A stretch of 64,000 bases of DNA. It comes from Muricea muricata. Its lineage: Eukaryota > Cnidaria > Anthozoa > Malacalcyonacea > Plexauridae. Shown here one piece after another: positions 701-44,559 of the stretch. The position numbers and the translations under genes were made by a program. Under the pieces are notes generated by a model. It ran no database searches. It had not been told where the DNA came from and saw nothing but the letters and a program-made list of their open reading frames with translations. Numbering within the stretch: position 1 is the stretch's first letter; each line of letters opens with the position of its first letter. The stretch covers positions 7,378,001 through 7,442,000 of the forward strand of contig OY979719.1 in assembly GCA_963855995.1 (NCBI GenBank). The letters are read 5' to 3'.

Positions 701-711
701 GGCAATTCCCA

Positions 712-1569: not shown

Positions 1570-1573
1570 TTAA

Positions 1574-2237
1574 GATGCTATTTTTAGCTGTGTTGAAAGA
1601 TTTTATGAACATTGCCTGCATGATCAAAATTCAGCATATCATGGAAATAAAAACACTTGTTACTAGTAGATAGCTCGTAGTTGATGGCACACATACACCA
1701 AGCAGTATTGCCTATCACCAGGGAGAAATAATGAGCTATACTGTAACATCAGCTGACTTCAAACAAGCAATACAAATGGACCAGGAATCTCCCAAATCCT
1801 GTCATTTTACAGCACCATGTCTCGCATGATCAGAGGTCAAAACGTAACCTATATATTAGAAAATATGCAATTATTCAAATAAAATTCAAAACCCTGTGTA
1901 GGTAACCAAATCTCGAGGGATGGTGTGGTAAAGAAGGATTCCTGATTCACGTAACAGGGTTTTAGACTTTTAGTTTCGTGCTTACGATACAAAGTAAACT
2001 GCTAACCTTTGTACTATTAGTAATAAAAATCATCAAATGTTAACAGGGCCAGGTTTTTTAGGGATTTCCCTTGGGTCTGTTTCTGGAAAAAGAGTGTCTT
2101 GTGTTTAGGGGAGCTGCAGGGGGTCTGCAGTGTCCCCCCCCCCCCCACTCTAAATACTCAAGGTGAATTTGGTCTTTGCTCTCCTGTGCATGATACAAAT
2201 ATATGGTGTAGAATATATAGTGTGTGATCACTTGCAG
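1574..2237. other. Noncoding stretch with poly-C run
   Basis: AT-rich sequence with no recognisable gene. A homopolymer of C near 2,136-2,149 is the only notable feature. The right end forms the presumptive intron before the candidate exon at 2,238. Confidence 0.4.
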
Positions 2238-2389
2238 GTACGTAATACCCAGCCTATAATATTACCATGCAGTAAGCCAGAGATGATGGAAACCATTAAT
2301 CTACAGATCCTGCCAAGAAAATATAGGCAGCTATATGAACAAGAGATTCTATACTGGTATTATACTCACTTTAACTCTCCAGTATCCAG
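2238..2389 (+). CDS. Candidate internal exon, unknown protein
   Basis: An open segment of 152 nt lies between a CAG acceptor (2,235-2,237) and a GTACGT donor (2,390). It encodes about 50 residues, including the stretches ILPCSKPEMMETINLQILP and RKYRQLYEQEILYWYYTHF, with a protein-like composition rich in Tyr and Leu. I do not recognise the family. It enters in phase 0 and leaves in phase 2. No matching upstream or downstream exon was found, so it could also be an isolated open frame or part of an unidentified transposon. Confidence 0.35.
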
Positions 2390-2603
2390 GTACGTTTCCT
2401 TCCCCAGTACAATGGCACATCAATCTTAACAACAACTTGACAATCTTAACAACAACTGAGTTTCTCACATGAGAAGCTTCCTTTTCTTACGACTACAACA
2501 CAAAGTAAATAGTTCTCCTTTATTACTGAAACTTTATAACAAGTATTTACAAAAATACATACACTCATATAGTGTAGTATTTTAAGAACAGAATAAAACC
2601 TAC

Positions 2604-2916
2604 CTTATGCAGGATTGTTTTACAGTAATCATCTCGGGAGCTTTTAATGGAGTATTCCTTTTATTTAGTAATTTTACAATACACCGGTAGCTCTTAGCAT
2701 CTGGCCAACTTGTATTCTTTTTTGAAGTGGTTGGACTTTTCACCTCTGCTTGTCCATTTTGACCTTCCTCATCACTCAAGACAATAACATCTGGCTTGCC
2801 AGGAGATTTAGTGCCTGACTTGCTCGACTTTCCAGATGGTGATTTCAGTTTGTTCTTCGATTTAGGCGAGTCAAAACCATTCACAATCAATGACATTGTG
2901 TAAATAGCCAACAAAT
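2604..2916 (-). CDS. Candidate exon of a charged nuclear protein, possibly BAZ1-like
   Basis: On the minus strand, a TTTCAG acceptor at 2,919 and a GTAGGT donor after 2,604 enclose an open segment of about 104 codons. It is rich in Lys, Ser and Pro (SPSGKSSKSGTKSPGKP) and contains the acidic SUMO-interaction-like run VIVLSDEEG. Such low-complexity linkers with VIVLSDEE-type motifs occur after the WAC domain in BAZ1A/BAZ1B chromatin-remodelling subunits. A WAC-like exon lies upstream on the same strand at 4,683, which makes one gene plausible. The splice phases of the two exons do not match directly, so an intermediate exon would be needed. Confidence 0.4.
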
Positions 2917-4682
2917 CTGAAATTTTTCAATTTTCAGTTAATTAGCCCAAGGATGTGGTCATATATACCTGTATACGAGCAATTACAGCCCAAGTGTATA
3001 GCTAAACTAGCACACCTAGCCAAATCCTATATATGCACATATTCAGGATATATTCAGAGTGAATATAAGTTTATATTCAGAGTGAATATAAATTTATATT
3101 CCGAGTGAATATATGTTGCTGGATCTCTCTATTAGCAAGCTTGTCAAGCTAAGCTAGCCAGCCATAAATATGTAAAGATCTTCATTCAACATATCAGGCC
3201 AAGTAATACAATTAAAAAAGCTTCTCACCTAAAGTTTGCAAAAAAAGATTGGCAATTTTCTATATTTTCAAAGTATTCGTTTGAACATATCCCATAAAAT
3301 GATAAGATTGATACTTGGAAAGACACAATAAGAATGTCTGAATTGTTCATTCTCAGGCAGTTTACATGGGATGTTTTTGTCAAATGAAAGTGAATCACAC
3401 TTCGTAGCCATTCTTGAGTCAGATCATGAACGTGAAGCTTTCTCAATCGCAGATTGTCATTTCAAACAAGAACGCTGACATGTACCATCAACAACAGTAT
3501 CACTTGACTCACTCCTAGTGGACGTCCATATCGGGTTATTCTAGAAGATCAATCAACTCCCTCCTTATGGAAGAAATGAACAACACACCCTCCTCCCCCC
3601 TTTACAGACATCCTATACAAATTTAAGACATTCTTTAGACAAGTAACCTTCCCTCTCACTCTTTCCCTGAGTGGTGGAGATTTCCTCTGTTGGTGGGTCA
3701 TGGATCTTTTTAGAAAAAACACATTCACAAAGACGTTGCTAGTATCTTGTGCTCTCTATTAATGTACAAGCACACCATTGACATTTCACATAACTTTTCA
3801 CTGTAAGATTTCAAACTTCGGAAGTTTGCTGTGAAGTCCATAAAGTTCATTTCAGAATTCACAAGTCGGTTTGTAGACTAAGCATTCCGTTCGCTCTGTT
3901 CAGGAGCCAATCACAGGCTTTGTTTACAATTCAGCTTGTGAACTTTGCAACAAACTTTTAAAATTTGCAACAAAGTTTGGAATATTTCAGTGAAAAGTTA
4001 ACTGAAAACAACTGTAGTAAAAAATAACGCTCAAAGCACAAGAATGCATGGAGGGATAAAGAACTACTAATTTTGGCAAAAAAATACAAAAATAAGCATG
4101 TTCCAAAAAGCATATCCCAATAACTAATTAATATCATTATTTTAGATTTACGATCTAAATTATTATTCCAACAGCAAGTTATAAACAATGATAATTTTAA
4201 AATTTTTCTAATGGCAGCCAGACTGCATTCTGTGCACTCAACGCCGGAGATCTCCGGCGTGGATTTATCATATCAGAACATTAAATATGGGAAATATTAG
4301 AGTTTTCTGGCATGGAGTTTACATGGAATGCACCCTGAAATAGCAGCCATTTTGCATTTTATTTAAAGCATACAACATGGCAACCACCAAATGTTAAATT
4401 TCAGGGAAAAAATAGCACAAATTTAGGAATTGGGTCAGCCCCTCCCAACCCAATACAAGAAAAAATTGAATAAGTATCATTTCTTCTTCCCAGAAATGTG
4501 CAAATTTACTACAAACCATGTCAACATTGCTAACACACCGCCATTTTTGTGATTTACAATCTCTTATCTCTCCTTAACAATCACATTTTAAAAACTCTCT
4601 CCAACCTGTCCCTAAACACCCACATTCTAAGAAGCCTCAGGACGTGGGCAAAAATAAACACCGTTATTCTTTTAAAACATAC
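2917..4682. other. Probable intron with small repeats
   Basis: AT-rich sequence between the two minus-strand candidate exons. It holds a short palindromic tandem repeat near 3,048-3,113 (three units built on ATTCAGAGTGAATAT) and a perfect palindrome GCCGGAGATCTCCGGC near 4,243-4,258. A minus-strand open frame at 3,225-3,446 ends at a possible donor but shows no recognisable domain and is not called. Confidence 0.4.
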
Positions 4683-4870
4683 TTCTCTCTTTTATATTTC
4701 ACATCAATTTCTTCACCTTCTTGGTATCGGTCTCTTATATAGTTGAAAACCTCGTCGCATAAATTATCCAACCGGCTGTGCCGAGTGTAATGTACAAGAG
4801 TGAGACATATTACGCCATACTCGAGTACGTAGATTTTAATATCGCACTGATTTTGTACAAAAATACTCAA
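4683..4870 (-). CDS. WAC-domain (BAZ1A/BAZ1B-type) exon fragment
   Basis: The minus-strand frame encodes ICLTLVHYTRHSRLDNLCDE followed by VFNYIRDRYQEGEEIDVKY, then a strong GTATGT donor (4,682-4,677). The pattern of a hydrophobic strand, SRL-x-x-L-C-D-x-V/I-F-x-Y-hydrophobic-x-D-R-Y and GEE matches my recollection of the second half of the WAC domain. That domain contacts DNA in the ACF1/WSTF subunits of ISWI remodelling complexes. The first half of WAC is not visible upstream. Either an earlier exon is distant, an acceptor near 4,847 is used, or this is a partial copy. The frame has no in-frame ATG. Family assignment is from motif memory only. Confidence 0.42.
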
Positions 4871-4960
4871 TAGTTTTTGTATGAAAAAATGATAAAGTTA
4901 TTAATTTGCGCGAGGTTTTTGTTCGCAGAATTTTTTTGCTGGCGTAGGCGATGGGTCGTT

Positions 4961-5016
4961 CCTATTGGCTGAGACACTTATTTTTCAACATGTACTTCCG
5001 GCAATTACCGGAAGTA
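4961..5016. promoter_or_regulatory. Likely shared promoter: CCAAT box and inverted ETS pair
   Basis: A CCTATTGGCT element (inverted CCAAT box, 4,961-4,970) is followed by ACTTCCGG (4,994-5,001) and CCGGAAGT (5,008-5,015), two ETS-family sites forming a palindrome with a 6-bp spacer. ETS/GABP and NF-Y sites are typical of TATA-less bidirectional housekeeping promoters. The cluster lies about 90 bp upstream of the MRM2 start codon and about 130 bp from the divergent WAC-like exon. Transcription start sites are inferred, not seen. Confidence 0.55.
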
Positions 5017-5106
5017 AATTTGAATCTTTTCGTGGTAATAGGTTATTGTGTCTGCAAATAAGTTGAATTTTTTGCAAGAAATTATTGGTTTTCCTAAATT
5101 TTTACC

Positions 5107-8100
5107 ATGCATTGTTGTGTACCAAGTAAAATTTCTTTCTCGATTATGTTTTTGAGAGTTTCAAATGGCAAAAGAATCAAGGAAAAAGTTCATGTTAGTG
5201 CCCTAATTTTTACCAACAAAAAGTTTTCTGTCAAAGGAAAGTCAGAGAGCTCCACTAGGTGGCTCAGGAGACAAGCTAAGGTTTGTTAAAATACGTGTAG
5301 CTTGCCCTATCATAATTCGCATGTACTACGTTGTGATACGATATTATATTTGGTCTTGGGATAGGTTAGGTATTGGTTACTGGTGAAAAAAATGGGTGAC
5401 CAGTATTGGTTGCTGGCGTTAACACCAGTCATGGGGTGACACCATTGATATTAGTCAGGAATGAGTTGTTCATATCTCCTACCAGGAAAACACAGGAAGA
5501 AATGAAGTACATGCTGCCAAAAATGCAAAATTCTCATTGGCGATTGATCGAAATGTGCCTGTCAATCAAATCAGATAGAATTATGTCGCACACTAGAAGT
5601 GCCTTTTCTTTAGGGACACAATTCAGTCTAACATATCTGATTTGATTGACGTACGCATCAACTGAACACTGGGAATTTTTTGTTGTGCATGGTCAATGGA
5701 TATTTCAATGCCTATGTTTGATTAAATGATGAAGTTAGTTATGTCTAGGCATATGACCATCTACAGCTTTGTATAAATAGTTAGCTAGAATGAGGTAACA
5801 TGTAAAGATCAGTTCATAACTAATGGTAGCTAATTTTTGTAAGGCGTTGGATAGGCTATCCTGTGGGAAGCTATTGCTATCTACAATATAGAGTACATAA
5901 TTGTTAACTGTTAAAAGTCAATCTTACAAAGCTCAATTAGAAGTGGTAAAAAGATTGTCAAATTTAGGAAAGCTAATTTAAAAGTGTAATAGATCTGTGT
6001 TTGAATGGGTTATTTTTGAATCTTCATGATAAACTGTTGTGATTTAGAATGTCTGAATAGGCCGGCTGAGCATGTCAACTAAATTTGTTATAATATTTAC
6101 TTAGTTTATTATCATGAATTAGCATATCTATTACTAGGATCCGTATGTGCACCAAGCACTCAGGGATGGCTACAGATGTCGCAGTGCATATAAATTGTTA
6201 GAGATGGATGATAAATATCATTCTCCTGGCTCTAGAGTATTATATCAAGCTATTTATTACTGGGTGTTAGGAATATGTCATTTTCTGAAGGGACTATTGC
6301 TTGTCACAAATACATCAGATCAGGGTCCGAATTAACGCTTCGCAAATCGCAAATTGCGAAGCGATTTGGAAAATTGCGTAATATTGCGAAGCGATTTTTT
6401 CAAAATTGCAAAGCTCATTTACCATTTTGTAGTAAATTTTGATTAACACTTTTATAGAATGTCTGAGACATTCCAGCCAAAAGAAAAACCGAAAAACGCC
6501 CTCGCGTATGTCCCCTCGCTAATCGCATCGCTAGATGAAAATTCAGCGTTGCCAACTGTTATTCTGTACAAATCCCAAGTAAGCTCCCTAAAAATCCCGA
6601 GATTTCCTCTAAAATCCCGAAATTCTTACTTTCGTTCTCATGTTCCCAGTCTCTGCGCAATTTAGGCCTCAGGCCTCTTATTGTGTGTTCTTTGCCTCCC
6701 GCTTTTGCTTTTGAGAGCCTTCCAAAACGAAATTTTGTTAAATATGCAGGTCAATAGAGCTAAAATACGAGCGCATGAACTGTCTATTTTAACAAAATCG
6801 TTTGTTAACTAGCTAATTTCACCAAAAATTTGATTACTAAATTTAGAACTTGAAGTTCTGAAAAATCCCAAAAAAATCCCGAGATTGAGTTTTTAAAATA
6901 AAAATCCCAAAAACATCCCAACAGATTTAAAAAATCCCGAGATCTCGGGATAAAATCCCGGACTTGGCAACACTGGATGAAATCTAATTTTATCCGTGAT
7001 TTATATGTTGACCGTATTTTCGCCGACGTCCGACTAGACCACCAACCAATCATTAGCCATGAATTTTGATCCGCCTTACGCACTTTCTTACGAAATGAAT
7101 GGTATGATTTGCAGTCCCAAATTTCGTAATGAGCGTTCAATGGCGACCCTGACCGATTCTATTGCTGACAATCTTAAAGAGGAGCTGGTAGAAGAGTTGA
7201 AAAAAACACGCTATTTCTCTTTATTAACTGATGGTAGTACTGACAAAGGCGTTTGTGAACAAGAAGCGTTGTATCTTCTTTTTATTTCTAATGAAGGTAA
7301 CATTGTAACAATGCAATTAGTACATTGATTTTTGGCGGTAGATCTGTATTCATTATTCCGTTTACTTTCAATTGACAGGTATCCCGGAAATACGATTCTT
7401 TGCAGTTGAATCTCCAGCTTCCACAAGTGCGGATGGCCTGAAACAGATGATAGAAGATTGCTTTCCCCGGTTCAGCATTGATAATTTCTCAACACGGTTA
7501 GCGTCGCTTAACGTGGATGGAGCGTCAGTTAATATAGGTAGCATAAACGGACTAGGGACAAAACTTCGTCACGATTCACCTTGGCTACTTATTATTCACT
7601 GCTTTAACCATCGTCTTGAACTTGCAGTTAAAGATGCCTTTAAAGGAACAGGTATATAATCGTATATTATTATTATTATTATTATTATTAGACATTTCTG
7701 TTGTCCTACTTCATACACAGTATCAGTAATGTCTGTTTAAATATTTAAGGTACGAAAACTTAAACATACCTGTTTTCCCACTTTTCTTTTGACTAGAATT
7801 TGATGAAATTGACGATCTTTTGACTAAGCTGTACTACCTTTACCAAAAATCGTCAAAGCGTATTCAGCGAGATTTTTGAGAAGAGCATAGCAAAGCCAGC
7901 CAAAGCCTATGGAACGAGGTGGATTAACCATAAGCTTAAAGCTATGGAAACCTTTGTAGCCAACTATGGTGCATACATGTTGCACCTTGAGTCCTTGTCC
8001 CAAACGGATTCGGTACCGGCAAGAAGAGAAGAGTTAAAAGGTTGGCTGTCAAAATGGACACACGCCAAGTATCCTATGCTGATGACAATATATATTGACA

Positions 8101-11100
8101 TTTTGACGCCATTGAAGGTAAGGACAATCTTCACGTGCCATTCAAACTTAAAAGTTTTCATTTGGTTCCACTCTTGACCTAAAGGTAACAGCTAACTTTA
8201 ACATAGTTTAACTTCTTAATAAATTGTAGTATTAATTCTCTTTTTATTCGTAGGTTCTAAGCCTGGGATTCCAAAAAGAATCGCATGACCCTGTCAAAGC
8301 TGTAAGACGCATAAACGAATTCGAGTGGACCATGGTGAAATTAAAAGATTTGATTGACAAGTGCATTCAAGATGACTCCGAGAAACTTACCAATTTCACA
8401 CGATTTTTGAAGGAGTGCACAGCTAAAACGTCGAATGAAGGTATCATGTTATTTTATGTTCTTTCAATGTCCTACTACTCGCCGACTGTGCGGATGGTAG
8501 CAGTTCATTTAGTCTGCAATGGTGTTGCATTCGTTTCTGTTTATTCTTAACAATATAGAATCTGACGAACCTAGAAACAAACGTCAAAGAATTACGAGGC
8601 AAGAAGCGCAAGAACTTGAGGACGATGAGGATGAAGCAGGTAATTTTACAATTGCAACGTGTTTTCTTATGCTAAACTCTTGATATGTGCTGTCAGAATC
8701 GCTAAGTAACTGTACGTGTTTTATTAAGTAGTTGTATATTACATAATATTGTCAAATGACGTTTATTTTTTAGACTTCCATTACCAAAAAATAAAATTGA
8801 AGAAGTTTGAAGCATCGTTGAAAAAAGTCAACAAGATGTACAGAAATATCATTGACGCAGTTTCTAGTAGTGTAGCTGGGCGATTTCAGGAGTTCCAAGA
8901 AAGCGTTGTATTTAAAAACCTTCCAGTCATCTTGGATGTCCCAATGTGGCCCGAAAACGAAGAATCACTCCAGCACTATGGTGACCAAGCAATTCGCGAG
9001 TTGAAGGAGTTTTATAACGCATTGCTGATGCAAAATGGCTGCAAGATTGACAAGGTTCTCCCAGAGTGGAATCGTTTAAAGGTATGGTAAGTTCCATACA
9101 ATGAATGAACTCGTCGTCCGCCTTGCGTTTTTGTAATATAATGTGATAGATGCCACGGCATAATTGCATGCAAAACAGCAGGCTACGTCTTTAGTGCTGT
9201 AATTATGTACGATATACTTCTCTTGCTAGTGCCACGTCAAAAGCTACATACTTGGAGTGGAGAAGATGGAAAAATATTTGAAAATATGGCAAACCATCTG
9301 GAAAAACGATATTATCCAAGCAGAGTGCAAGAATGTGATGCACATTGTTGAATTACTTCTTATTACGCCATTCACGAATGCAAAGGTCGAGCGTTTATTT
9401 AGCCGAATGAACAGAATCAAGACAACGTTGCGAAATCGTTTAAGCACAGCACGACCAGAGACTCAGTTACGAATTGGCGAAGAAGGGTGTCCGCTGGCCG
9501 ACTTTAAAGCTGACGAAGCTCTCGAATATTGGCTCGACCAAAAGATACGACGTCTAAATAGTGCCAAACCACGAAATATCCGGCGGAAAGGCAATCGACG
9601 ACAGCATCATCTTCCGCGGAAGTTATAGATATCGCAGCTGCTACTCTTTCGGATCTAGAAGAGTTTGAAAGCGATGAATGTGGTGATTTGTAAACACAAA
9701 ACAGTGTATGACACTGACAACTAATGATACAATATTTCTAAAAATCAATAAAGTTTTTACCTTGTTTAATTTTTGCCTTTATCCAGTGGGAAATGTCTGC
9801 GGCAGCGAGCACGTTGAAAGGCATATAAAATGGCCAAAGTCACTGCATGCATGTGCTCCCGTCGATAGTCTCTACACATTCGTAAAAAGTCCCGGGGGGT
9901 GCTAAAAATGGGGGAATGTCAAGAATACAGGGGGGGGGGGCAACGCAAATTTTTCAAAAAAAAAGTTGCGAAGCTGTTTTGTAGCGATAATTCGGACCCT
10001 GCATCATAGACAGGTTTATACAAAAATATTTTTTAACTCTTGCCTCAATTTTTTGCATAATAAAACAGTCTACTATCTAAGTATCTGTTGATCTGTCTGT
10101 CCTCATATTATGTGGTTCCAATTTGTATGCAAATAACTTTAAATAACTCCTCTCCCCATCCCCCACCCCCAAAAAATATTGCCCTATAAAAATATTGAGA
10201 TAGCAATTAAAGCACCACCCTAGTAAAAATATGGAAATAATAATTAATAGAAGTCATTCATAATTCATAAACTAAAGGGGATTATATACTACTCTGCTTT
10301 GCCTGTAGGTAGACTGTGGTGCTTCTCCAGGTAAGCTGTTAAAACTTAAAAAATCAAATGCCTTCAATTTACTTACTAGCAGAATGATGAGCCTTACTTT
10401 ATAGGATCATGGACACAAGTAGCAGTAAAAACAATCAAATATGACAAAAATCATAAAGATCCTGGAATTGTGGTTGCAGTTGATTTATTAGGTAGCTGAT
10501 GTGTAATTATAAGTATTAATTAACTGCTAGTTACCTTATCAGTAGTCATTTACACCCATCAGTTGCCGAGGCCCAGTCTCTTTGTCAAGCAAGATTGTCT
10601 GGTATTCTTAGGCACATGTAATTTTTTTTGGAAGGGCAGATTCGGGCCCCAAATAGTTTTTTCCTGCTCATAAAAATGACTAGAACTTTGCTCGAGTGGT
10701 CCTGATGCGCTCGGAGTGTTTTGACACTTTAACACCAAAGATGCAATTTCCTGTGTACTTTAATCAAAACTTCGTTGTATACCATTTGTATACCATCTTT
10801 TGTTCATAACTTCCCAGGGCTGTAACTACCCCCCCCCCTTCCATATGCCTATGCTTGCATTAGACATGTAAAATGATGAATGTAGCCTATAGAATATGCA
10901 AATCTTTTTTAATGTTTTGGAACTACGTTGAACCAATCACCAGCAGGTTATTCTGACTTATAAACGTCTCAGAACTTTATATACTGAAGCAGAGAGCCAA
11001 ATTTTAATAGTTATGAAGATACACTTCAGAGTGTATTTTTGTGATGCAAAATGTGCAAAAGCCACATTGGTTTGTCTGTTCGAGCTCTAAAGTTGTACTT

Positions 11101-22706: not shown

Positions 22707-22807
22707 ACCTAGGCCTGTTCCCCCTGGATCATTGCCTAAATTTTCAATGAAATTTTCCGGTCCCTGTTGAAATTTTTTAAACTGCAATCACTTTGTTTTA
22801 ATAAAAC

Positions 22808-25800
22808 ATGCCTCGTCCTTGTTCCGTTTTTTGGTGCAAGAACTCTCGAAAGAGAAAAGGAATATCTTTTCACCGGTAAGTTTTCCTCAATATTTAATTT
22901 GTGCCTAGTTATACGCATTTCTTTTATACGCGAAATGTTCGTCACTCAGTTGTTTTGCATCTCGCCATGTTTTGACGAGATCAAAACTTTTGCTGTATTT
23001 TTACAGCTGAATATGTGGTAAGGCGATATTTGTTTTTCGTGATTCTATACAAGCTTGTTCTTGCTTTTAAGTTTGAAATTATTAGGAACAGTCCCGACAA
23101 ATACAAGCGAAATTTACTTGTTATAATGCAAAAAACTTACAGCTTTGGCTGTGACACTTTTAAAAGCTGAGCTGTTTTCGCGAAAGTTTAGTTAATGATT
23201 TACAGTGCTTCTCAACCGGAAGCAGATTTCATACACACGACGTCTACATGCTTTATAAAATTTACAGACAATTGCTTTTTTATCCAATTACAGTTTTCCA
23301 GATAAAATAAAAAGTCCAGAACTGCACGGGAAATGGGTTCAAGGAATAAACAGCTGTTCACCAGTAGAAGTTGTTCCTGTGCAAGACAGCCTGGTTTGTT
23401 CGGAGCATTTCAGTGCTGAAATGTTTGACTATTGTGGGCTGCATGGCGAGAAAGCAGTGTTGAAATCAAATGCTGTGCCAACGATATTTGAAAATCCTGA
23501 ACTTCATAGCGAGCAAGCGACACCAACAATACTTGAAGTGCATTCTCAGGTCAGTACAGTTTTTTCACCCAAACATTATGCGTTTACCAACATAGATTAG
23601 CTTGTAGTGTTTTACACTATTTTGCATTTTTACATGTTTTTATACAAAACTAATAGAGCTATATACAATAATCTTCCCAATGAAAAGTACCTGCCAGGTT
23701 ACAGTAGTTGAGCACATTTTGATAATGGTTATGATTGGAATTTGAGTTGGAATTTGAGCATATTTTGAGTTGCTATTTCCCTCTCTTAAAGTTAGTATAT
23801 GTGTATGATATATTTTTGAATGTGATGTCAGCACTGACAATACAACTTATAATGTGGAGATCACTTGTTATGGTTAGTGTATGATTTCTAGCATACCAGC
23901 ATGCACATAGTGGTAGTACTTCAGCAACCTGATGCATGGTTTAGAAATCTAGTCAGGCTGGGGTGTTGGTTTTTGTTTCTTTAATTTATTTTTTCCCATA
24001 CACTAACCCAGTCAGTGTTACAGTTTCTTGTGCCTGGTGTGGGGGCTCCTGGTTGGCTAGCAGGAAACATACCTCACAAGCCAGGCAATTTGAGAGTAGT
24101 GCCTTCCAGAGGCTGGCTTTGGCAAATTGAAGCCCCTGAATACCTAGGCATCCATTATCCATCAGTGATGCAGTGGATAAATAGCAACACATTCACCAAC
24201 ATTGTGTTTTATATATAACAAAATGTATATGTTTATAACAGTGAATTTTGCCAATTTATATATACATGTAATCAGTGGTGTAGCCAGGGTCATTGTTTTT
24301 GGGAGGCAAGCAGCAAGCGGCGAAGGTATTCTAGGGGGTCCCCCCCACTTCTACACAGATTTAGACTTTTCGAATGGTCTTGAACACAATTGGGGTTGCC
24401 TCGCCCCCCCCCCCCCACCCCACCCACCCCTTAACTACACCACTGCATGTAATCACAAAATTCAAAAATATCATAATTTTTTATATAAGTTATTAATCAA
24501 CAATATTGTTAAAAATTTTAATGTTTTATCAGAAACTAATATAATTGTTATTGCATAGGTGGAGGTGTCCAGTGAAACAGTACAGCTTGCTAACAGTAAT
24601 GAAGAGTTGAATGAAAATGGCAAAAATGCAAGTGATACAGTGGAAATCACTAGTGCACGTATGGGTAATGTAGAAAATGTTCAAAATGACCATACATACT
24701 TTCTAAGTTCTCCTAGTATATTAAAAAGGAAAGTTGATAATCTGCTGGACACAGTTGAAGACCTCAACAAGAGATTGAAGACATCTCATGTAAAAGTGCA
24801 CAGGTTGAAGAGAAAGGTACAATCGTTAGCTTTAGTGGTAAGTGAGTTAAAGAAAAAAAACCTGATAAGTAGTGATTGTGCCAGTCTCCTGGAGACAACT
24901 TTTTCTGGAGTTCCTAGAGAACTTATGAAAAGGTTGGTGACACAGAAGAAAAAGAAGAATCCAGGTGCGTACCCAAAAGAGTTACGTACATTTGCCATGA
25001 CCCTAAAGTTTTATTCTGCTAAGGCATACAGATATGTGCGCAAATCTTTTGATTTAGGGTTGCCAGATCCATCTACGATCAGCAGATGGTACAACGTTAT
25101 TGATGGAGAGCCAGGGTTTACACAGGAAGCATTGACAGCCTTGAAAGCAAAAGTTTTTGCTGGGCAACGCGATGGCCAGAAGGTTGTTTGTGCTTTGATG
25201 TTGGATGAGATGTCTATTCGGAAGCATGTCCAATGGGACCCCAAAGCAGGAATGCGTCGAGGTTATGTAGACGTTGGTACAAAGATTTATGATGACTCAC
25301 TGTCGGTAGCCACGGAAGCTCTTGTGTTTATGGCTGTCTCTGTGAATTCTAACTGGAAAATTCCATGTGGGTATTTTCTAGTAAATGGCCTCACGGCTGA
25401 AGAGAAAGCGAACCTGACGAGAGATTGTCTCACGAAACTGCATGAGACGAAAGTAAAGGTGGTCTCCTTCACATGCGATGGACCAACAACTCACCAAGCA
25501 ATGTTGAAATTGCTTGGTGGTCGACTGTCTGCTGAAGATATGCAGGCATACTTTCCACATCCTTGTGATAATAATGAGAAGATCTATATTTTTTTAGATG
25601 CATGTCATATGATAAAGCTGGTGCGAAATACCTGGTCAGACTGGAAAGTCTTACATGATAAGGATGGCAACACCATCGAGTGGAAGTTTATTGTAAGATT
25701 GCAGGAATTGCAAGAAAAGGAAGGTTTGCGTCTAGCAAATAAGTTGCGATCAGCGCACATAGATTGGAAACCTCAGAAAATGAAGGTAAATTTGGCAGCA

Positions 25801-34131: not shown

Positions 34132-34236
34132 TCATTGTGTACAACAGGTGTACAAAGCAATTAAAATTTTTAACAATATTGTTGATTAATAACTTATATA
34201 AAAAATTATGATATTTTTGAATTTTGTGATTACATG

Positions 34237-34412
34237 CAGTGGTGTAGTTAAGGGGTGGGTGGGGTGGGGGGGGGGGGGGGCGAGGCAACCCCAATTGTGT
34301 TCAAGACCATTCGAAAAGTCTAAATCTGTGTAGAAGTGGGGGGGGACCCCCTAGAATACCTTCGCCGCTTGCTACTTGCCTCCCCAAAACAATGACCCTG
34401 GCTACACCACTG
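34237..34412. mobile_element. hAT-type MITE, right-arm copy
   Basis: Inverted counterpart of the MITE at 24,273-24,445, with the same 8-bp duplication (ATTACATG on this strand, 34,229-34,236 and 34,413-34,420). Its presence in both arms shows that they descend from one copy. Confidence 0.8.
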
Positions 34413-34807
34413 ATTACATGTATATATAAATTGGCAGAATTCACTGTTATAAATTCATACATTTTGTTATATATAAAACACAATATTGGTGAATGTGTTG
34501 CTATTTATCCACTGCATCACTGATGGATAATGGGTACCTAGGTATTCAGAGGCTTCAATTTGCCAAAGCCAGCCTCTGGAAGGCACTACTCTCAAATTGC
34601 CTGGCTTGTGAGGTATGTTTCCTGCTAGCCAACTAGGAGCCCCCACACCAGGCACAAGAAACTGTAACACTGACTGGGTTAGTGTAAGGAAAAAATAAAT
34701 TAAAGAAACAAAAACCAACACCCCAGCCTGGCTAGATTTCTAAACCATGCATCAGGTTGCTGAAGTACTGGCATGCTGGTATGCTAGAAATCATACACTA
34801 ACCATAA

Positions 34808-37800
34808 TGCATGTATCAATGTTAAGCCCGAGGGGGGGGAGGCCGGGCATATGTGGGGGGTTTGACATGTGGTTGTGCTCCCACCCTGGGGCTTTTGCTT
34901 CTTAAATGCCGCCCCAGGGTGGGGGTTTTGAACCATATTAATTTTTACGGAATTTACGGTTAATTTCTACGGTATTTTACGGTACACACGGTGTTATATT
35001 TATACGTTCACGATATTCGTGTGCTTACCGCGTGATAGCGATATACACGTGACCATATTAGAGCACATGTCGAAGAATACGATTACGAACTTCAATTGAG
35101 TTTGCGTCTGCGAATTTTTAAAGGTAAGTTTTACATTCAATTTTTGATATAATCCCATTTAATCCATAGACTATTTAAACCATCGATATCAGAAAAGCAT
35201 AACTCTCAAGTGCAATTTTAAACAGTGCAAAACATGCCTGCTTATTTTATTTTAGAAATGCGTATATTTAAATTTTATATGCATGATTCAGTATAATTTA
35301 ATATGTAAATAATGAATTGTTTGAGTATTAAAGATCTTTGAAATATTTGCCGTTATATTTTAACTGGTTTTATATTACAGGAAATAGAAAACAATAATAG
35401 AACTTGCACATTTGAAAGCACATAAAGGGTACAATGAGAATTCAAATTTATGTTTGTATGTATAGGAATGATACCAGTTTGAGAATGCCGTTGTTAAAGG
35501 TGACTGATTGTGCACGGGCAAGTAGAATATGTGTTGTTGCAGCCACGGTGGATGAGCTGATTAAAAAAAGTCAGTGTTAAATTAGTAAAGTGACTAATAT
35601 TGTTTTCTGAATCTGAGACTGGCATGTTTACTATTTGAGCCAAGTGATGGTTCACAGTTTTGATATACACAGAATTATATAGGTGATTTTAAGAAACTGT
35701 GCTAACTGCAACCCCTATAAATTTTTTGGGGTCCCTTGGTAGGCATCAGTATTTATTTGTGTGGGATAGATAGGTTGTGTACTTGATTGGCCAATTAAGA
35801 TTTATTTATAAATATGTTAATTCAATGAAAGCTTTCTTTGTCCAGTACACCCCACTCTGCTCTCAACATTAATATACTCATTTGGTATATGTTGTTGTAG
35901 TACCAGTATCTTTCATATTAAGCCTTTCCCATCTAGGATAGGAAGGCAAGGAATATTAAACATGAGAGAGGGCTGAATAAGTCAATATTATGGAAATTTA
36001 TTTCTGGTTACAATTACTCTGGTAACTCAAAATATAGAAGCATAAAGGGATTGTTTATTTTTATGTTAATATTCCACTCTTGAAATGCATATAGTAGTCA
36101 TGCATGCCATTTGTTTTCTTCACAGCAAATGCAAAAGGTGCAGAAGGATGTATTGCAGTATTGGAGGAAGATGGAACATTGATAGACGATGATGATGTGG
36201 TAAAAGAACTAGACAAGAACACAGTGGTTATGATAGTAAATAGCCAAGATGCTTGGAAGTCTCCAGCTTGCAAAACACAAGGAGAGCAGAACATGGTGCA
36301 TGAAAGTAAAAACGCAGAAAAAGATGAAAATATGCGCTTGGAATTTAAAGGGGGGAACCTTCAGCTAAGAAAGCTAACAGCACTGGTAAATTTTGAACTC
36401 TTTCTTTCAATTATTTATAACTTTTTTTTGCATTACAAGTACATATGTTGCTTATTAAGTGTGAATATGCTTATCTTATTTTGCCACATTTTACTGTATA
36501 CTATTGTTAAAGATGCAGTTGTTGAGAATTAAACCTATGTGTTAAGTCAATAATTTTTATGTCTTGATAGGAAACTGCCCAGTATGAAGCAATGGAAAAG
36601 AATGATGTCATGGAAAAAGCTCAAATTTATGGGCGTAATTCAACCAAACCTCTCACAAAATACCAAATTGCTGTGAATGATGCTGCAGCAGCCATTGCCA
36701 AGGAGAACCCAATGGTAATTCTTAATAGAGGTATTGTATAATTTTCCCAGATAGTATAATAATATGTGACAATTGATTTGAAGTGAATAAATGGGTAATT
36801 TTATAGCTACAAAACAGATTCAGCACTAAATAGTAAACTTCTTGTTTAGGTAATTTGTTGGAAAAGGCGAAAGAAAAGGTCATTCAAGATGGGTATGCTT
36901 TTGTCAAGGGACAGTCAAGAAGCAAAATGGAAAGATCAAAAAGCCCAGCCAAGAAAAGAGCCAAATTATCATCAGAGGAAAGAGCTCGTGAGATTGATTC
37001 GTTACACGAAACTATAAAATTGTTGGAAAATCGTATAATGTTTAAAAACCAACAGCTACAGAAAGAAAAAGCCATGAACAATTATAAGAAGTGTGATGAA
37101 ATTAGTGAGAAAATATTGGAAGTCCAGAAGGAAAAGAAATCTGTTGACCGTCAGCTTACAGCTCTGGTGAAAAAAGAAAGCAAATCTCAATGGTATCTCT
37201 CTGGTAAATCTAAGAAGTCATCTTCAAAACCAAAAAATGTTCGCGACAACCAGTCCAAGCTGCCTGATTTGTTCAAGCAAGATTCAATGTCCAGCACAAG
37301 CACCTGCAGTACTGATGATACACTCATTATTTCTGATCCGGAGGATCTAGATTTTAAAACCCATGCAACCATGGAAGAAGATCTCCAGGAATTGGATCAG
37401 GATGCACCCAAGTCACCTGTCCTAATTTAGGAATCTCGTTCAACGGTAAACGACTGCGCTAAGGAATTGGTCCAAGGGACACCTCAGACAGAAGAAGAGC
37501 AGAATTTTTGTTAAAGGCCTCCCCCAACAGTTGCAAAAGAAGTGAAGAAGAAAAAGATTATGTTGATTTTAATTATGTGAAAACTTACACTGAACAAATA
37601 AAACGTCCTTTGTCCAAATTTAACCGTGTTAGTAATGATGTACATGTTTCTATTTTTGAAGGTCTTACTTTAATTGACTATATAGAAGCTCGGAGGTACG
37701 TCTGTTGCAAGCGACATGCCCAACCCTGCAGTTTGTGTTTTGCCATGCTTAAAGTTGCACAAAAGGTAATTGAAGATGGATACATGAAGTTGAAAGTTGC

Positions 37801-40800
37801 ATTCGAAATAGTAAGCCCAAACGTTACTTACATGGCTTTGCACGCCCGTAGAAAACTTTTACAAATGCCTCTTGCAACTTTGGGGATTGGTGAAAGGTCT
37901 AAAGGCAACTACTGTGTTTTTTTGGTAGAGAAGAATTCTAGTGTCCATTACAATATTTTCAAGTCATTACTTAATAATTTGGTGACTTGCAAACAAAAGG
38001 AAAAACCAGTTCTAAGTAGAGAAACCGTGAACAAGCTTTTAAAACTTGCAGAATCAGAGGGTGAAAAGCAACGCTTGAAATTTGCTATCGTTGGGGCAGC
38101 CGGCTTGTCTAGCACCAAAGCAAAATCTATTTACGGTTTTGACGATATGGCAGCCAAGACCAAAGAGGTCAAAGATGCTCTAGAGGAGGCTACAGCAATT
38201 CGCGAAGTTATTGAGAACATAGCAGAGAGTAAGGATCGTGCACTTCTTAATTTGTTTGGCATTTATGATTCAGACAGCTCGGAAGGTTCCGATAATAGTG
38301 AAACGGACAGTGAACAGGAAGATACAGATGTAACTGTGGGTAATGACGACAAGGTCGACAGTGCTACCGATGTAACTGGGCGTAATCTTCGTGAGGATAG
38401 TGCTAGGAACGTAACTGAAGACCAAGAGTTTTATACTAAGAAGCTGACCATCAACGATGATCAGCTTCTTAGTATACTGTATCAATGCGAACTTAACTGG
38501 TTGGAATTTGTTCGTGTCACAGGCGAAATGCAAAGAAGTCTACCCGCTTCAAATTCTGTCGAAAGTATGCTAAATGCTTTTGCAGCGAGATTACCTAGTT
38601 TTAATTTGAAAGAATGCGAATTGTATGTTATCGAGCAGTCTCGCCAAGTATATAACCTTACAAAACAGCTGAATGAAAAAGAAGATGACATTGACAATGG
38701 AATAATTTTGTCTGAATCTGACTGCGAAGACCTGCACGAACTTTCAACTATTAAAATCCTCTGGACGACAAAGGAAAAGAAGTACTGAGAAGGAAGAGAG
38801 CTTTTATAAAACGAAAGGCTAACAGGGAGATTAAAAAAAGGATTGCAGAGAGACGTTTCCTTCAAAGGCGACGAAGCAAAAAAGTAAAAAGGCTAGAAGA
38901 TGAATGTCCTGACATCGGAACAACGATAGAAGAATTTGTCAGAAAGAGGGGCGTGGGTGCAGATGCATGGCGGAGGACAGGAGTGTTAACATTCGACGGG
39001 AATAGAAAGCTAGGGAAAAAAGTAACATTTCGTACCATTCAAGCACATTTGGAAGCAAAATACCATAGGAAAATCAGCTATGGAACTGTTGTTCAGTTGT
39101 GTATACCTAGGCCGGAACAAACGTCGTAAATCAGCAGCGAGGTACAAGGGACTAGCTGAGGTTACGCAACGTCGTGCAAGGAAAGGATTCACCTTAAAAT
39201 ATAACCCGGACAGTCACTGGAGTGCTGCTCTTTACAGAGGCTTAGATTATGTTCAATACAAAGATGGTACACACATAATGAACGTGGGGCGTGATGATCA
39301 AGCCGGTTTTCGACTAGACACCTTATCGACGAATAAGCAATTTGGAACGCTAACATTGAAGGATCACGTATCTACAACAACCAGAACCGACTACATGAAT
39401 CCGTACCCCTCTGTTTTACAAACAACGAGCTACAACTTCCCTTCAACTGAAACAACAAATGAAATATGTGGTGGAGTTGTAAAGGCAAAGAAATTATTCA
39501 ATAAAAACCCCGCACAACATTATGCTGATATGCTAATGTTAGAAAAACACGAGGACATCAAGCAAGCATTTTTAAATCCTCGCACTGGCAAACAGAAGGA
39601 TATAGAGTGTATTAGGGTTGACGGTGGCGGTGATGAGGGTCCTGTGCACGAGGAGGTACAGTATTGGTGGACCAAAAGACATCTGGTAAAACAAACTAAA
39701 GCAATGATGGTGTCCACGCGAAGCAGTGGTTCAAGTTACAAAAACAGAGTGGAACTTCAAAATGGGTGCATTTCTTTGGGTCATGCTAATCTCTTCATTC
39801 CCTCGACATTAAACGGGTCGTGTATAATTTCAGGCAAGGTGAACGATGAAATGTTATGTAAAAATCTAGATTCTGCTATTGACGTTTACCTTTCTCGAGT
39901 AGACAAATCACCTTGTGCCAAAACCGTTATTCATCTTACAAAGGGAGCAAATAGCGACGATGAGCAGAAAGAGAGAGAAATTGTTATTAAATTCTTAAAA
40001 GGAAAAGCTGAAGACAAGAAACAAGCGAAGTTACAATATCCTGATTTATACAAAAATATTGAGAGCATATGGCAATTAAGACAGAGACATATGGTTAAGG
40101 GCTTGCCTGTTCAGTATGTGTTTTACCTAAGGTGTTGTTACAGTCCACAGTGTATCCATCCATTGTGCCGAAGTGGTGTGTCTGTTGATGAGTTTTGGTA
40201 TCCAGATGGACCCTCCCTAGATTTTTTCCCTTCACCCACGCCTGATCCAGAACGCCTGTTTGGCAACCTCAATTGTGAAGATTGTGATGGGTTTTGTGCA
40301 GGTCACTATTTAAAACCAGACAAGCTTGTGAGTTCCATTACCATTCCATCTAAAGCAATACCCCCTTCACAAGTGCTCTCAAAAGTATTCAAAGAAAACA
40401 ATGGTTTCCCCGATGAAGATGTAATAGCTGCAACTGCAAGCAATGTTTTACTTAAACCTGAAGAAGTACGAATGTGGTTTAAACACCTAGAAATCGTGCA
40501 AAATAACAGGAAGAAAGGAGCGAAGAAAGCTGCCGCTACAAGAAAGGCAAAACATCAAGGTGGGACTACAGACAAACAGCCACTGAGAGATTCAGATGGT
40601 GATGAACTGTGCAATACATGTGGCGAATTTAATCCTCCTGAGCTGCAAGATATTTACGATGACGACTTTGCCTGGATAGCTTGCAGTAACTGTTCATTCT
40701 GGTTCCACCAAATCTGTGCTGGTTTACAACATATTCCTATATATTGGTTATGTGACACTTGCAAAAGTGCATAGATAGATACCACTATTGTTGATATTTA

Positions 40801-41135
40801 TATTTAATTTTGTTAATTGTTGGGAACAAGGAGGCATGTAGTTAAATACCTTAAATACATTAAATTAAAAATTGTGTTGTATTGATTAGCATTTAAAATA
40901 GTTTGTGCCCAGACAAACGTGTTCTAAACTGTTGATCACTATTACCCAAAGTGTGCCATTCCTGGTTATACTAGGTGTGCAAGTTCCATACCTCCCGGGG
41001 GTGGAGATATTTTCCTTTATTTGATTGCCATTTTATGCCCCACTGTCAGGCATTTGAACATTTCTGATGCTAAAATTTCAAATCCCCCACATATGCCCGG
41101 CCTCCCCCCCCTCGGGCTTAACATTGATACATGCA
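34808..41135 (+). mobile_element. 6.3-kb DNA transposon with CIDE-N/PHD gene, family unassigned
   Basis: Terminal inverted repeats of about 55 bp begin TGCATGTATCAATGTTAAGC and include GGCCGGGCATATGTGGGGG. A 3-bp TAA duplication (34,805-34,807 and 41,136-41,138) is confirmed by the empty site in the left arm near 23,868 (AACCATAACAAGTG). The element carries one + strand gene spanning 35,485-40,774. A 3-bp T-A-A duplication could fit Harbinger, CMC or Academ-like groups, but the protein does not look like any of these that I know. Confidence 0.8.
35485..40774 (+). pseudogene. CIDE-N, DDE-like, homeodomain-like and PHD transposase gene with lesions
   Basis: Exons 35,485-35,569, 36,126-36,385, 36,571-36,730 and 36,850 onward join in frame. 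The first two make a CIDE-N-like domain (MPLLKVTDCARASRICVVAA, then GCIAVLEEDGTLIDDDDVV and NTVVMIV), known from the DFF/CIDE apoptosis nucleases. A Lys-rich coiled coil follows (about 36,990-37,190). The C-terminal half has a DDE-like core (CIRVDGGGDEGPVHEEVQYW, NRVELQNG, NLFIPSTLNGS), a Cys-rich patch (CCYSPQCIHPLCRSG), a homeodomain-like helix region (LKPEEVRMWFKHL with NNRKKG) and a PHD finger (CNTCGEF, CSNCSFWFHQICAG, CDTC). Lesions: frameshift near 37,421, stop at 37,460-37,462, frameshifts near 38,757 and 39,112. This copy is therefore probably dead. The catalytic assignment is inference. Confidence 0.65.
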
Positions 41136-41429
41136 TAACAAGTGATCTCCAGGTTATAAGTTGTATTGTCAGTACTGACATCACATTCAATAATATATCA
41201 TATGTACACATATACTTTAAGAGAGAGGAATAGCAACTCAAAATATGCTCAAATTCCAACCCAAATTCCAATCATAAGTAACCTGGCAGGTACTTTTCAT
41301 TGGGAAGATTATTGTATATAACTCCATTAGTTTTGTATATAAAAAACATGTAAAAATGCAAAATAATGTAAAACACTTCAAGCTAATCTATGTTGGTATA
41401 CGCATAATGTTTGGGTGAAAAATACTGAC

Positions 41430-44239
41430 CTGAGAATGCACTTCAAATATTGTTGGTATCGCTTGCTCGCTATGAAGTTCAGGATTTTCAAATATCAGGG
41501 GCGGATCTAGCTTGAGATCTGACCGTGTCTTGTGAAGGACATTGTATTTCAGGGGGAGCAGCGGAACGCTCTCCCCCTACCGCCAAAAAAATTGAAAATT
41601 AAATCGGCTTGGAAAAATTTTAAAAATTGAAAAATTAAATATCAAAAATAAATATTGAAATTTGAAAATTAGAACAGGCTTTTTCACAAAAAAGAAATAA
41701 AAAGCACCAATAATTTGACACATCTATAAATATACATATGTACATTTGACACATTTATAAATACACATAAATATTATCATGACAGTATTTATCATGACAG
41801 TCTGACAGACACTTATTGTGTAGTGTACATGTATCATTTAACAAATTAAGTTAAAGTATTGCAGTACTTTCTTTCAGGGCCAAAGTTAGATTGTTAATTA
41901 GGGGGGATGGGGATTCATATACCAGTACTTGTTTTTTGGCTGACAAATTTCTTTTAAAGTCTAACACATTTCAAAAGAAATTAGTCAGACAGAAACTGAA
42001 TATAGGAATATTTACCCATCTAATTAACACCCTGGCTTCACCCCTGACTTTATCATTCCACTCTGTGCTACAAACACATCATAGAAAGAGCAGTGAATCT
42101 TTGAGGATTATTTGATGTGTACCTAGCCTCATTTGGTCAATTATGTTAAAGCATCAAATTATGCCCTATAACAAGATGTAACAAGATGTGCCCTACATTT
42201 TCCACTGTCTAATACCAGAAGATGCTATGCCAGTGATGAAGTGCTTGTGGTGTTTAATTAACTGGTAATCTGCCTGCTTGCCTAGTCTATACACAAAGCA
42301 GATTATCAGCTTTCGATCAAAGCAGTCTATATGAGCTGTCACAAGCTGAGCATCTATGTCTGCAAGCTGGCTTAAATCTGCAATGGCTGTGAGTTTTATT
42401 TAGCAGCAGGGCCAGGAGAGGGGGGGGGGGGCGGTGCTGCCACTGAAAAATTTTGAAATCTAGGCCAGGGTCCCACAAATAGTTATAAATATCAATACAT
42501 GAAACAACATTGAGTAACATTTATATCACCAAAATATTTCATATTGTTCAAAGCATTGAAGTATAATCATGCTACAACGATTGTTGTCAAATCACACAAC
42601 TAGGGATCCAGGTGACAATAAATGTAGAATTGCTTTCTATTAACTACATAAACCATCATTTACTTTACATTGTAGGTCATAGATTACAATGTAGCACACA
42701 GTAACACAGGCCATATTTAAAAAAATATGTTATATTACCAAGTGTTTTTAGTATAGGATCACGGATTTATATGAACACAAAGTTACACAATCAGCACTTG
42801 TCTGCCACTCGATCAGCACTTTGGTATTGACAGTATTAAAATTTACATAACATTAACGATTTGCATATTAGCAAATTTCATGACTCTTACCTTTCCAGGA
42901 TCTATCATTCTGCCTCGCATATTTACGGTTTAATCCATCAGCAAAACGGGATCGCAGTTATACTTTTCGAAGACCTAATACAATACCCGAATTAGAACAA
43001 GAACTTTCCGAAGTGTTCACGATTATAACTGTTTCTTGATCATTGCGCAATAAAAACATGGCCACCGTGTCTCACCGTGTCGCACGTCACAAAATCTGGC
43101 CTTCTGATTGGTTGGATACCTTCCACCGTGTCTCAAAGTTACTATATTTAGTAACAAAAAACCGCGGACCGTGTCAAAATCGTGTCTGAAAATCGCAGTC
43201 ACATGCTACGATCATTTTCCGAACATGATTAACAACTTCGAGAAGCATTCGGTTATACTTCGTGGAAAACTATAAATATCATGAATTGCGGGGTTTTCCC
43301 ATCGTTAGAACATATTAAATATTTAGTCCTCTTAAGAAATAGACTTTGAGATCTTTGCGTCAGTTTTTTTTTGTTCTTTGCTGAGCTTTTGTTAAAATGT
43401 TGGTATTGGAGACTATATTTGAAGCGTAACAAACTAAGTGTGTAAATACTGACATTTATACTGATTTCTTTGTCTCGATGGACAAGCATATTAATATCTC
43501 AAAAATCTGACGGTGTCTCAAGCCACGCTTGATACCCCCTAGATCCGCCCCTGAATATCGTTGGCACAGCATTTGATTTCAATACTGCTTTCTCGCCATG
43601 CAGCCCACAATAGTCAAACATTTCAGCACTGAAATGCTCCGAACAAACTCGGCTGTCTTGCACAGGAACAATTTCTACTGGTGAACAGCTGTTTATTCCT
43701 TGAACCCATTTCCCGTGCAGTTCTGGATTTTTTATTTTATCTGGAAAACTGTAATTGGATCAAAAAACAATTGTCTGTAAATTTTATAAAGCATGTCGAC
43801 GTCGTGTGTATGAAATCGGCTTCCGGTTGAGAAGCACTGTAAATCATTAACTAAACTTTCGCGAAAACAGCTCAGCTTTTGAAAGTGTCACAGCCAAAGG
43901 CAAGCTGTAAGTTTTTTGCATTATAACAAGTAAATTTCGCTTGTATTTTTCGGGCCTGTTCCTAATAATTTCAAACTTAAAAGCAAAAACAAGCTTGTAT
44001 ACAATCACGAAAAACAAACATTGCCTTACCACATATTCAGCTGAAAAAATACAGCAAAAGTTTTGATCTCGTCAAAACATGGCGAGATGCAAAACAACTG
44101 AGTGACGAACATTTCGCGTATAAAAGAAATGCGTATAACTAGGCACAAATTAAATATTGAGGAAAACTTACCGGTGAAAAGATATTCCTTTTCTCTTTCG
44201 AGAGTTCTTGCACCACAAAACGGAACAAGGACGAGGCAT
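41430..44239 (-). pseudogene. THAP exons 1-2 of the right-arm transposase copy
   Basis: Exon 1 (44,172-44,239) and exon 2 (43,554-43,748 plus 41,430-41,495) match the intact gene closely, with the same start and splice sites. Exon 2 is split by a 2.1-kb insertion, and exon 3 is absent because the arm ends about 30 bp before it. At most a THAP zinc finger without catalytic core could be made, and only if the insertion were removed from the RNA. Confidence 0.8.
41496..43553. mobile_element. Non-autonomous element with CAGGGGCGGATC ends
   Basis: It starts CAGGGGCGGATCTAG and ends with the exact inverse, inside exon 2 of the right-arm THAP copy. AATAT is repeated on both sides (41,491-41,495 and 43,554-43,558) and occurs once in the intact exon, a 5-bp duplication. 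CAG-type ends suggest hAT, but hAT makes 8-bp duplications. The 2,058-bp interior has no recognisable coding region and contains a G-run with a nested CAGGG-like patch near 42,404-42,470. Confidence 0.7.
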
Positions 44240-44559
44240 GTCTTATTAAAACAAAGTCAATCGCAGTTTAAAAAATTTCAACAAGGAGCAGAAAATTTTG
44301 TTGAAAATTTAGGCAATGATCCAGGGGGAACAGGGGGGGAGGAAAACTTTGGACTGTTTTTCTGGCCTGCGATCATCCGAAAAAAATAGGGACCAGTGAC
44401 GCGTTTTACGTCACAATCCGCCATGTTTTCGATTACACTTTTTGGACAGGAATGCGATCTCCAGATATATAGTATAGCTCAGTGGTACAATGACTTTCAT
44501 GAATGGCGCTTGCGGCTCGCGACAAATTTTACGCGCACTTTTTGGGCTGCTATGTCAAA

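Follow-up and report, generated by a model that had tools for sequence, protein, structure and literature searches.

The window analysed here is a stretch of 64,000 nt from the genome of Muricea muricata (positions 7378001-7442000 of contig 4), and a DNA transposon, now a broken copy, lies between its positions 34808 and 41135. An initial annotation had described this element as carrying one multi-exon gene that fuses a CIDE-N domain, a DDE-like core, a homeodomain-like region, and a PHD finger. The transposon itself stands, but the single gene does not: as read from the sequence, coding is divided between two open reading frames (ORFs) in different frames. ORF A carries an N-terminal module, a region similar to NCD2 of NAB proteins, and a coiled coil, and ORF B carries the putative DDE core, a homeodomain-like stretch, and a PHD-like finger. 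The features are, in window coordinates:

34805..34807, no strand: TAA duplication, left copy
34807..34868, + strand: left terminal inverted repeat, from the repeat search
35434..35569, + strand: ORF A exon 1, encoding the beginning of the CIDE-N module, with a GT donor at 35570
36126..36385, + strand: ORF A exon 2, remainder of the CIDE-N module and a linker
36571..36730, + strand: ORF A exon 3, first part of the NCD2-like region
36850..37514, + strand: ORF A exon 4, which completes the NCD2-like region and continues through a coiled coil (by sequence) and an acidic tail to the regular stop TAA at 37512-37514
37463..40774, + strand: ORF B, in the -1 frame relative to ORF A, broken
37502..37508, + strand: candidate -1 slip site, GAATTTT, which ORF A reads as G AAT TTT
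39293..39295, + strand: first catalytic Asp candidate, in RDDQAGF
39620..39622, + strand: second catalytic Asp candidate, in RVDGGGDEGP
39752..39754, + strand: catalytic Glu candidate, in NRVELQNG, 44 residues past the second Asp
40370..40483, + strand: homeodomain-like stretch (residues 449-486), E 0.023, below cut-off
40610..40762, + strand: PHD-like finger, below cut-off in the window copy
41075..41136, - strand: right terminal inverted repeat, from the repeat search
41136..41138, no strand: TAA duplication, right copy
23729..24028, - strand: paralogous empty site, within an inverted copy of the surrounding DNA

The element starts with the letters TGCATG at 34808 and ends at 41135, and the repeat search gives it two terminal arms of 62 nt with a mutual complementarity of 97% (about 55 bp had been noted at first). 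A TAA stands on either side, and the flanks joined through a single TAA align to window positions 24028-23729 on the minus strand with 90.8% identity over 304 columns, the junction being spanned. Terminal inverted repeats, a target-site duplication, and an empty site, the marks of a cut-and-paste transposon, are all present, as the initial annotation had maintained. The surrounding DNA forms an inverted duplication in which 22714-24522 corresponds to 34160-34807 plus 43554-44334 (about 96% identity in the two longest pieces), with the transposon occupying one arm and the empty site the other. All three introns of ORF A are GT-AG (556, 185, and 119 nt). The window copy is broken: a stop interrupts ORF A at 37431-37433, and the core is spread over three frames (37463-38788, 38755-39129, and 39026-40774). 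ORF B also contains a near-perfect 21-nt inverted repeat with a 3-nt loop at 38432-38476.

A protein search of the genome (453 Mb, 74 contigs) returned at least 82 matches (75 of 223 candidates scored), and loci of this genome are referred to below by L-numbers. Other copies with the same ends and 3-bp duplications, for which the initial annotation had proposed a search, do occur: the relatives have ends of the TWA/TGCA kind around the same core, and each of the 10 elements for which a single retrieved locus contains both ends is flanked by a matching TAA or TTA. A TAA also stands on either side of L011, the left end of which was located in L058, and of L056, an internally deleted derivative made up of the 5' 537 bp and the 3' 568 bp of the window family. 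This derivative is found twice on contig 15 (L056 at 7961200-7962400 and L057 at 7921340-7922545), with flanks that by eye are reverse-complementary, as in an inverted duplication. L013 and L015 are 99.92% identical over 6382 bp and have different duplications (TTA and TAA), and L024 and L026 share 99.9% identity over 8575 columns. Because near-identical copies sit at sites with different duplications, relatives of the element have moved recently in this same genome. The window copy is a decayed member of this cut-and-paste transposon family. The core is a single open frame of 892-1132 amino acids in L013, L014, L015, L016, L018, L019, L024-L029, and L045. Two loci show further rearrangement: the CIDE-type element in L016 is flanked by additional inverted matches that start with TGCA (103-8836 and 530-8386), as if it were nested in another element, and the ORF A tail of the L014 family contains a 120-bp in-frame direct duplication (6067-6306 in L014).

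The relatives differ in the domain that occupies the 5' slot of ORF A. The exon 1-2 peptide of the window copy matches CIDE-N (PF02017) at E 6.6e-15 with 55.4 bits (cut-off 23.5), which agrees with the domain first assigned to it, and CIDE-N is also over cut-off in L014 (52.6 bits), L016 (50.7 bits), and L028 (78.2 bits), the latter 2 as hand-spliced peptides. The same slot holds TDP-43_N (PF18694; cut-off 27.1) in L013 (58.4 bits) and L018 (65.8 bits), and SAM_1 (PF00536; cut-off 23) in hand-spliced peptides of L029 (31.0 bits) and L044 (29.9 bits). A further type, here termed module X, is predicted to have a ubiquitin-like fold (pLDDT of about 89 across residues 1-70), and Foldseek places ubiquitin variants at the top of its list (E 2.3e-4) and PB1 filaments of AtNBR1 at rank 4 (E 5.5e-4). 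Published sources are cited here and below for the excerpts that bear on each point; under the definition used, PB1 combines a beta-grasp fold with a Lys in b1 and/or an OPCA motif D-x-D/E-x-D/E (PMC7051960). An OPCA-like FDNDWDEW is present in L024 and partially in other X modules, and the b1 Lys was not seen. Within the module, 11 X-type copies agree at 98-99%. Modules of L022, L023, L045, L046, and L049 were left untyped and excluded from label counts; L022 had been suspected by eye to carry SAM, and its best Pfam match was at E 0.13.

Module matches in the genome are linked to core or NCD2 matches much more often than in shifted sets. Searches found 20 CIDE-N, 12 TDP-43_N, and 21 X matches, and 39 of the 53 lie no more than 15 kb upstream, on the same strand, of a core or NCD2 match (CIDE 12/20, TDP 8/12, X 19/21), whereas 2000 shifted sets gave 0.13 on average and never more than 3. 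The genome's highest-scoring CIDE-N (89.6 bits) and TDP-43_N (93.9 bits) matches are unlinked and resemble host genes. In the window, L013, L015, L016, L018, L019, L024, L026, and L028, the two ends enclose the N-terminal exons; the SAM type is represented here by one end alone, the left end of L029. Left ends of the TWA/TGCA kind (2 mismatches or fewer) also accompany CIDE-N in L014 and L017, TDP-43_N in L041, X in L025 and L027, and SAM in L029. That the N-terminal exons are part of a host gene outside the element, one of the outcomes on which the initial annotation would have been given up, was rejected, the exons being within the terminal repeats in the two-ended relatives. The other such outcome, an absence of CIDE-N or PHD profile matches, did not arise either, CIDE-N being over cut-off in the window copy and PHD weak there and over cut-off in relatives.

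A tree of the core (28 rows, 530 columns) requires 5 changes among 4 module labels, where the minimum possible is 3, and a single clade is rejected both for CIDE (p 6e-196) and for X (p 9e-5). Left out of the tree were L001-L010 (shorter cuts of places otherwise represented), L031-L043 (modules only), and L051-L058 (later or without a core). By these comparisons of sequence, CIDE-N, TDP-43_N, SAM, and a ubiquitin-like fold have replaced one another in the module slot during evolution, and the simplest reading is that CIDE-N was ancestral and replaced later. CIDE, TDP-43_N, PB1, and SAM domains are known as head-to-tail polymerisers (PMC7156525, PMC5491494, PMC7051960, PMC7614096). A self-assembly role for the transposon's CIDE-N, suggested at the outset from what CIDE-N domains do elsewhere, gains weight by analogy because relatives carry other published polymerising domains in the same slot.

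Behind the exchangeable module, the remaining parts appear to be shared. Exons 3 and 4 of the window copy together match NCD2 (PF04905) with 28.2 bits (cut-off 25), and of 9 members, 8 have an NCD2-like region behind the module at E<=0.1, with scores that exceed the cut-off in the window, L013, and L027. Genome-wide there are 17 NCD2 matches (59798825-59799082 on contig 2 and 16 others), most of them in or near transposons of the window kind and one host-like at 95.2 bits. NAB genes and ORF A of the transposons may have a common origin. In the putative catalytic core, the first D is retained in 27 of 27 filled rows, the second D in 27 of 28, and the E in 27 of 28. A model of the core (L014, 23 rows, mean pLDDT 72) places the first D where b1 ends, the second D where b4 ends, and the E within the helix that follows b5, which is the order expected of an RNase-H-like fold. 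The initial description of a DDE-like core holds to that extent, without a match to any Pfam DDE family.

The C-terminal assignments were partly upheld. In the window copy, PHD_2 (E 2.2e-5, residues 551-580) and PHD (E 0.005, residues 529-579) are both below cut-off; PHD (PF00628) is above cut-off in the 3' ORFs of L023, L024, L028, and L029, where it lies on separate exons. Two successive PHD-like ORFs stand behind the core in L024 (8314-8791, gene strand) and L023 (8383 and 8889), perhaps as alternative or tandem 3' exons. The homeodomain-like stretch is present, and its match is weak, falling below cut-off in both the window copy and L013 (E 0.0032 in the latter).

How ORF B comes to be expressed depends on its junction with ORF A. 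One locus per lineage was used for this question (14 of 25 loci); the window, L011, L015, L017, L019, L020, L025, L026, and L030 were left out as near copies, and L021 and L023 because the upstream frame is broken or not known. In all 14 readable lineages ORF B lies at -1 relative to ORF A, and the junction falls on a run of slippery type. The two ORFs overlap by 7-49 nt, always at -1, in L011, L012, L014, L016, L018, L022, L024, L027, L028, L029, L044, and L045, which are independent or near lineages, with L012 representing the window family; in L011, ORF A has a stop just ahead of the run. An automatic frame table gave offset 1 for L013, L015, L030, and L050, the wrong ORF A having been chosen, and for L046 it pointed at another, broken place; L030, L046, and L050 rest on reading of the frames.

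Heptamers were chosen by eye within the overlaps, and 7 of the 14 are canonical: U_UUU_UUA/C/G in L027, L028, L029, L044, and L046, A_AAU_UUU in L024, and G_GGG_GGG in L022. GGAUUUU occurs in 4 (L013, L014, L018, L050), GAAUUUU in 2 (the window family and L045), and GCCUUUU in 1 (L016). Of these, G_GAU_UUU has been termed a typical -1 slippery motif (PMC11050907). Canonical heptamers occupy 7 of 96 in-frame overlap positions (one of them TTTGGGT, additionally present in L014), compared with 28 of 3025 upstream. An uninterrupted stem of 9-13 bp begins 6-9 nt past the heptamer in L013, L016, L018, L024, L044, L045, L046, and L050, each with p 0.0027-0.0055 when ranked among 365 windows from that locus. 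Many studied -1 sites have spacers of 5-9 nt (PMC5009743). The combined p is 5.6e-10 with all 14 lineages in and the six misses included, and control sites shifted by -300, -150, +300, or +600 nt have 0 of 14 stems each. This test was run on 12 lineages (6/12 below 0.01) and then on 14 once the frames of L046 and L050 had been read. The sequences of the stems vary between lineages and their position is constant, and the folding energy, averaged across 12 lineages, has its only dip from -10 to +10 around the site. Together, these features make the joining of A and B look like a programmed -1 ribosomal frameshift.

The explanation that we favour, with a probability of roughly 0.7, is that of a decayed cut-and-paste transposon whose family bears an exchangeable module on A, reaches a catalytic A-B protein by -1 frameshifting, and assembles through polymers. 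A minority of ribosomes would slip back one base at the run in the A/B junction, which in 8 of the 14 lineages has the hairpin downstream of it, yielding much A and little A-B. The two proteins would co-assemble through the module into head-to-tail polymers that gather catalytic subunits on the element ends, and surplus A alone could set or damp the level of activity. Through avidity, the PHD finger might also hold the assembly on histone tails. The overall logic would resemble that of IS3-type OrfA/OrfAB and of Gag/Gag-Pol.

The same junction might instead belong to an ordinary spliced gene, in which an undetected intron joins ORF A to ORF B and the change of frame is a matter of intron phase. 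The gene does have other GT-AG introns, one of them just upstream of the junction in L013, and sequence alone leaves room for another; splicing, however, predicts neither the short overlaps that are always -1, nor the excess of canonical heptamers within them, nor stems at 6-9 nt that are absent from all four control offsets, and we consider it unlikely. Still less probable is slippage of RNA polymerase at the T-run, as used by some bacterial IS elements (PMC5009743). Such a run is present at the junction in 13 of 14 lineages (a G-run in L022), but in most it comprises only 4-6 T, and the hairpins have the spacing known from ribosomal -1 sites. A different objection concerns the modules, which might be passengers, that is, fragments of host exons captured by chance that contribute to neither assembly nor transposition. 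Capture of host exons by DNA transposons does occur, and the PB1 domain of the plant MUGB proteins was probably gained in this way (PMC8616336). Against this, every typeable lineage has a module in the same place (five being untyped), and the exchanges swap one published polymeriser for another. The TDP-43 interface residues E17, E21, Q34, R52, and R55 are retained in L013, L018, and L039 (E14 is not), and capture was not recent, because the transposon TDP-43_N modules score 88-150 against human TDP-43 and the host gene scores 242. The passenger explanation is therefore improbable as well.

Several observations weigh against the frameshift-and-polymer explanation. Module X has no meaningful Pfam match, its profile found one chance-level match among PDB sequences, and it is only perhaps PB1-like; in the core tree, a single clade is not rejected for TDP (p 0.158). 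The -1 relation in L013 holds if CAG/GTGATA is the splice donor, and in L046 and L050 it was read by eye. GCCTTTT of L016 is non-canonical, as is GAATTTT of the window family, a site of the weakest kind that the 14 lineages show. No significant stem was found in 6 of 14 (the window family, L014, L022, L027, L028, and L029; pseudoknots were not searched). The case for frameshifting is thus least strong in the window family, with its non-canonical run and no stem, and the copy in the window is itself dead. For the predicted core, Foldseek gave no match at E<=0.001 in PDB or BFVD (Mos1 was at rank 4, E 0.49); the structural comparison proposed at the outset yields the D, D, and E at the expected places of the predicted fold and no match at that threshold.

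The element could not be placed in a named superfamily from its sequence at first, and this stands after the comparisons with Pfam, PDB, Foldseek, and DDE_3. Across 23 members there was no match at E<=0.1 to Pfam DDE families, profiles for CACTA/EnSpm, MULE, Ginger, and other named superfamilies included; the core profile matched no PDB sequence at E<=10; and hhalign against five DDE_3 (Tc1/mariner-type) proteins of the same genome gave a Prob of 0.1. Membership of IS630/Tc1/mariner was rejected on the unmatched DDE_3 profile and on a duplication that is a 3-bp TAA/TTA, single in the empty site, and not TA. As a separate observation, about 40 DDE_3 (Tc1/mariner-type) matches occur at 6500248-6593113 on contig 8 with a spacing of about 2.45 kb, like a tandem array. 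The window element is an unusual DNA transposon, possibly of a new superfamily, as judged against Pfam, PDB, and Foldseek, with Repbase outside the comparison. It is possible, if doubtful, that it belongs to a superfamily already described, for instance in Repbase, with a core outside Pfam, and is unusual in detail only. PIF/Harbinger elements, for example, have a 3-bp TWA target-site duplication, which they have in common with the window family (TAA or TTA here); their DDE_Tnp_4-type transposase is among the Pfam families without a match. A bolder proposition, to which we give somewhat better than even odds, is that this is a new animal transposon superfamily that arrived independently at the plan of Gag/Gag-Pol, with a swappable polymeriser (CIDE-N, TDP-43_N, SAM, or PB1-like) and a frameshift to a DDE-PHD enzyme, transposing within polymers that contain few catalytic subunits.

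If true, an animal cut-and-paste transposon would be using programmed frameshifting, and it would become testable whether higher-order self-assembly drives or limits transposition. A single enzyme family that has accepted several published polymerisers in the same slot would amount to a natural swap experiment, and near-identical copies with long open frames exist for assay. For annotation, matches to CIDE-N, TDP-43_N, SAM, and NCD2 in animal genomes can be transposons. CIDE-N genes number 10 and 7 in two Hydra species versus 1-3 in five other cnidarians (table in PMC7642931), and it is suggested only that transposons of the window kind could underlie this and other higher CIDE-N gene numbers.

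Individual parts of the element have counterparts in known systems. In the open PMC literature, as far as titles and the beginnings of abstracts go, no element family of the window kind is described, and no pairing of a transposase with a TDP-43 N-terminal domain, nor of a NAB conserved domain with a transposon, was found there. PHD fingers in transposases are reported for one Ginger1 family (PMC2836005) and for Rehavkus (PMC6446971), which resemble the window family with its PHD-like finger in this and differ in their cores and in the length of their duplications (4 bp and 9 bp). For the module, MUGB comes closest as a precedent: in this domesticated Mutator transposase a short 5' exon of its own encodes an N-terminal oligomerising domain that was captured. 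This was a single capture in a MULE, and neither domain exchange nor a frameshift is described for MUGB in the excerpt available (PMC8616336). Concentration of an enzyme by polymers is known from DFF40/CIDE, where the nuclease is concentrated in CIDE filaments (PMC7156525), and avidity from VEL proteins, which combine a PHD finger with a head-to-tail polymer (PMC7614096); unlike the window family, neither is a transposase. ORF A is similar to the NAB1/NAB2 co-repressors in having an NCD2-like region after an N-terminal module, and NAB proteins differ in having no transposase part. NCD1 of NAB is itself SAM-like.

For the two-frame layout, the closest parallels are the bacterial IS3 family and IS1, in which orfA and orfB are joined by -1 frameshifting; the same source names frameshifting for bacterial IS families and says that it would be required for the telomere-bearing elements of Oxytricha (PMC5009743). 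Here too an upstream ORF that could act alone precedes a putative DDE ORF in the -1 frame at a slippery run. The eukaryotic host, the introns, the PHD-like finger, and a putative polymerising module in place of the usual DNA-binding OrfA set the window family apart; the likeness drawn here is one of layout. Retroviral Gag/Gag-Pol, in turn, provides many self-assembling and few enzyme-bearing subunits through -1 frameshifting. The window family is a DNA transposon with different proteins, and it would resemble this system in the way it works, with many assembling and few catalytic subunits.

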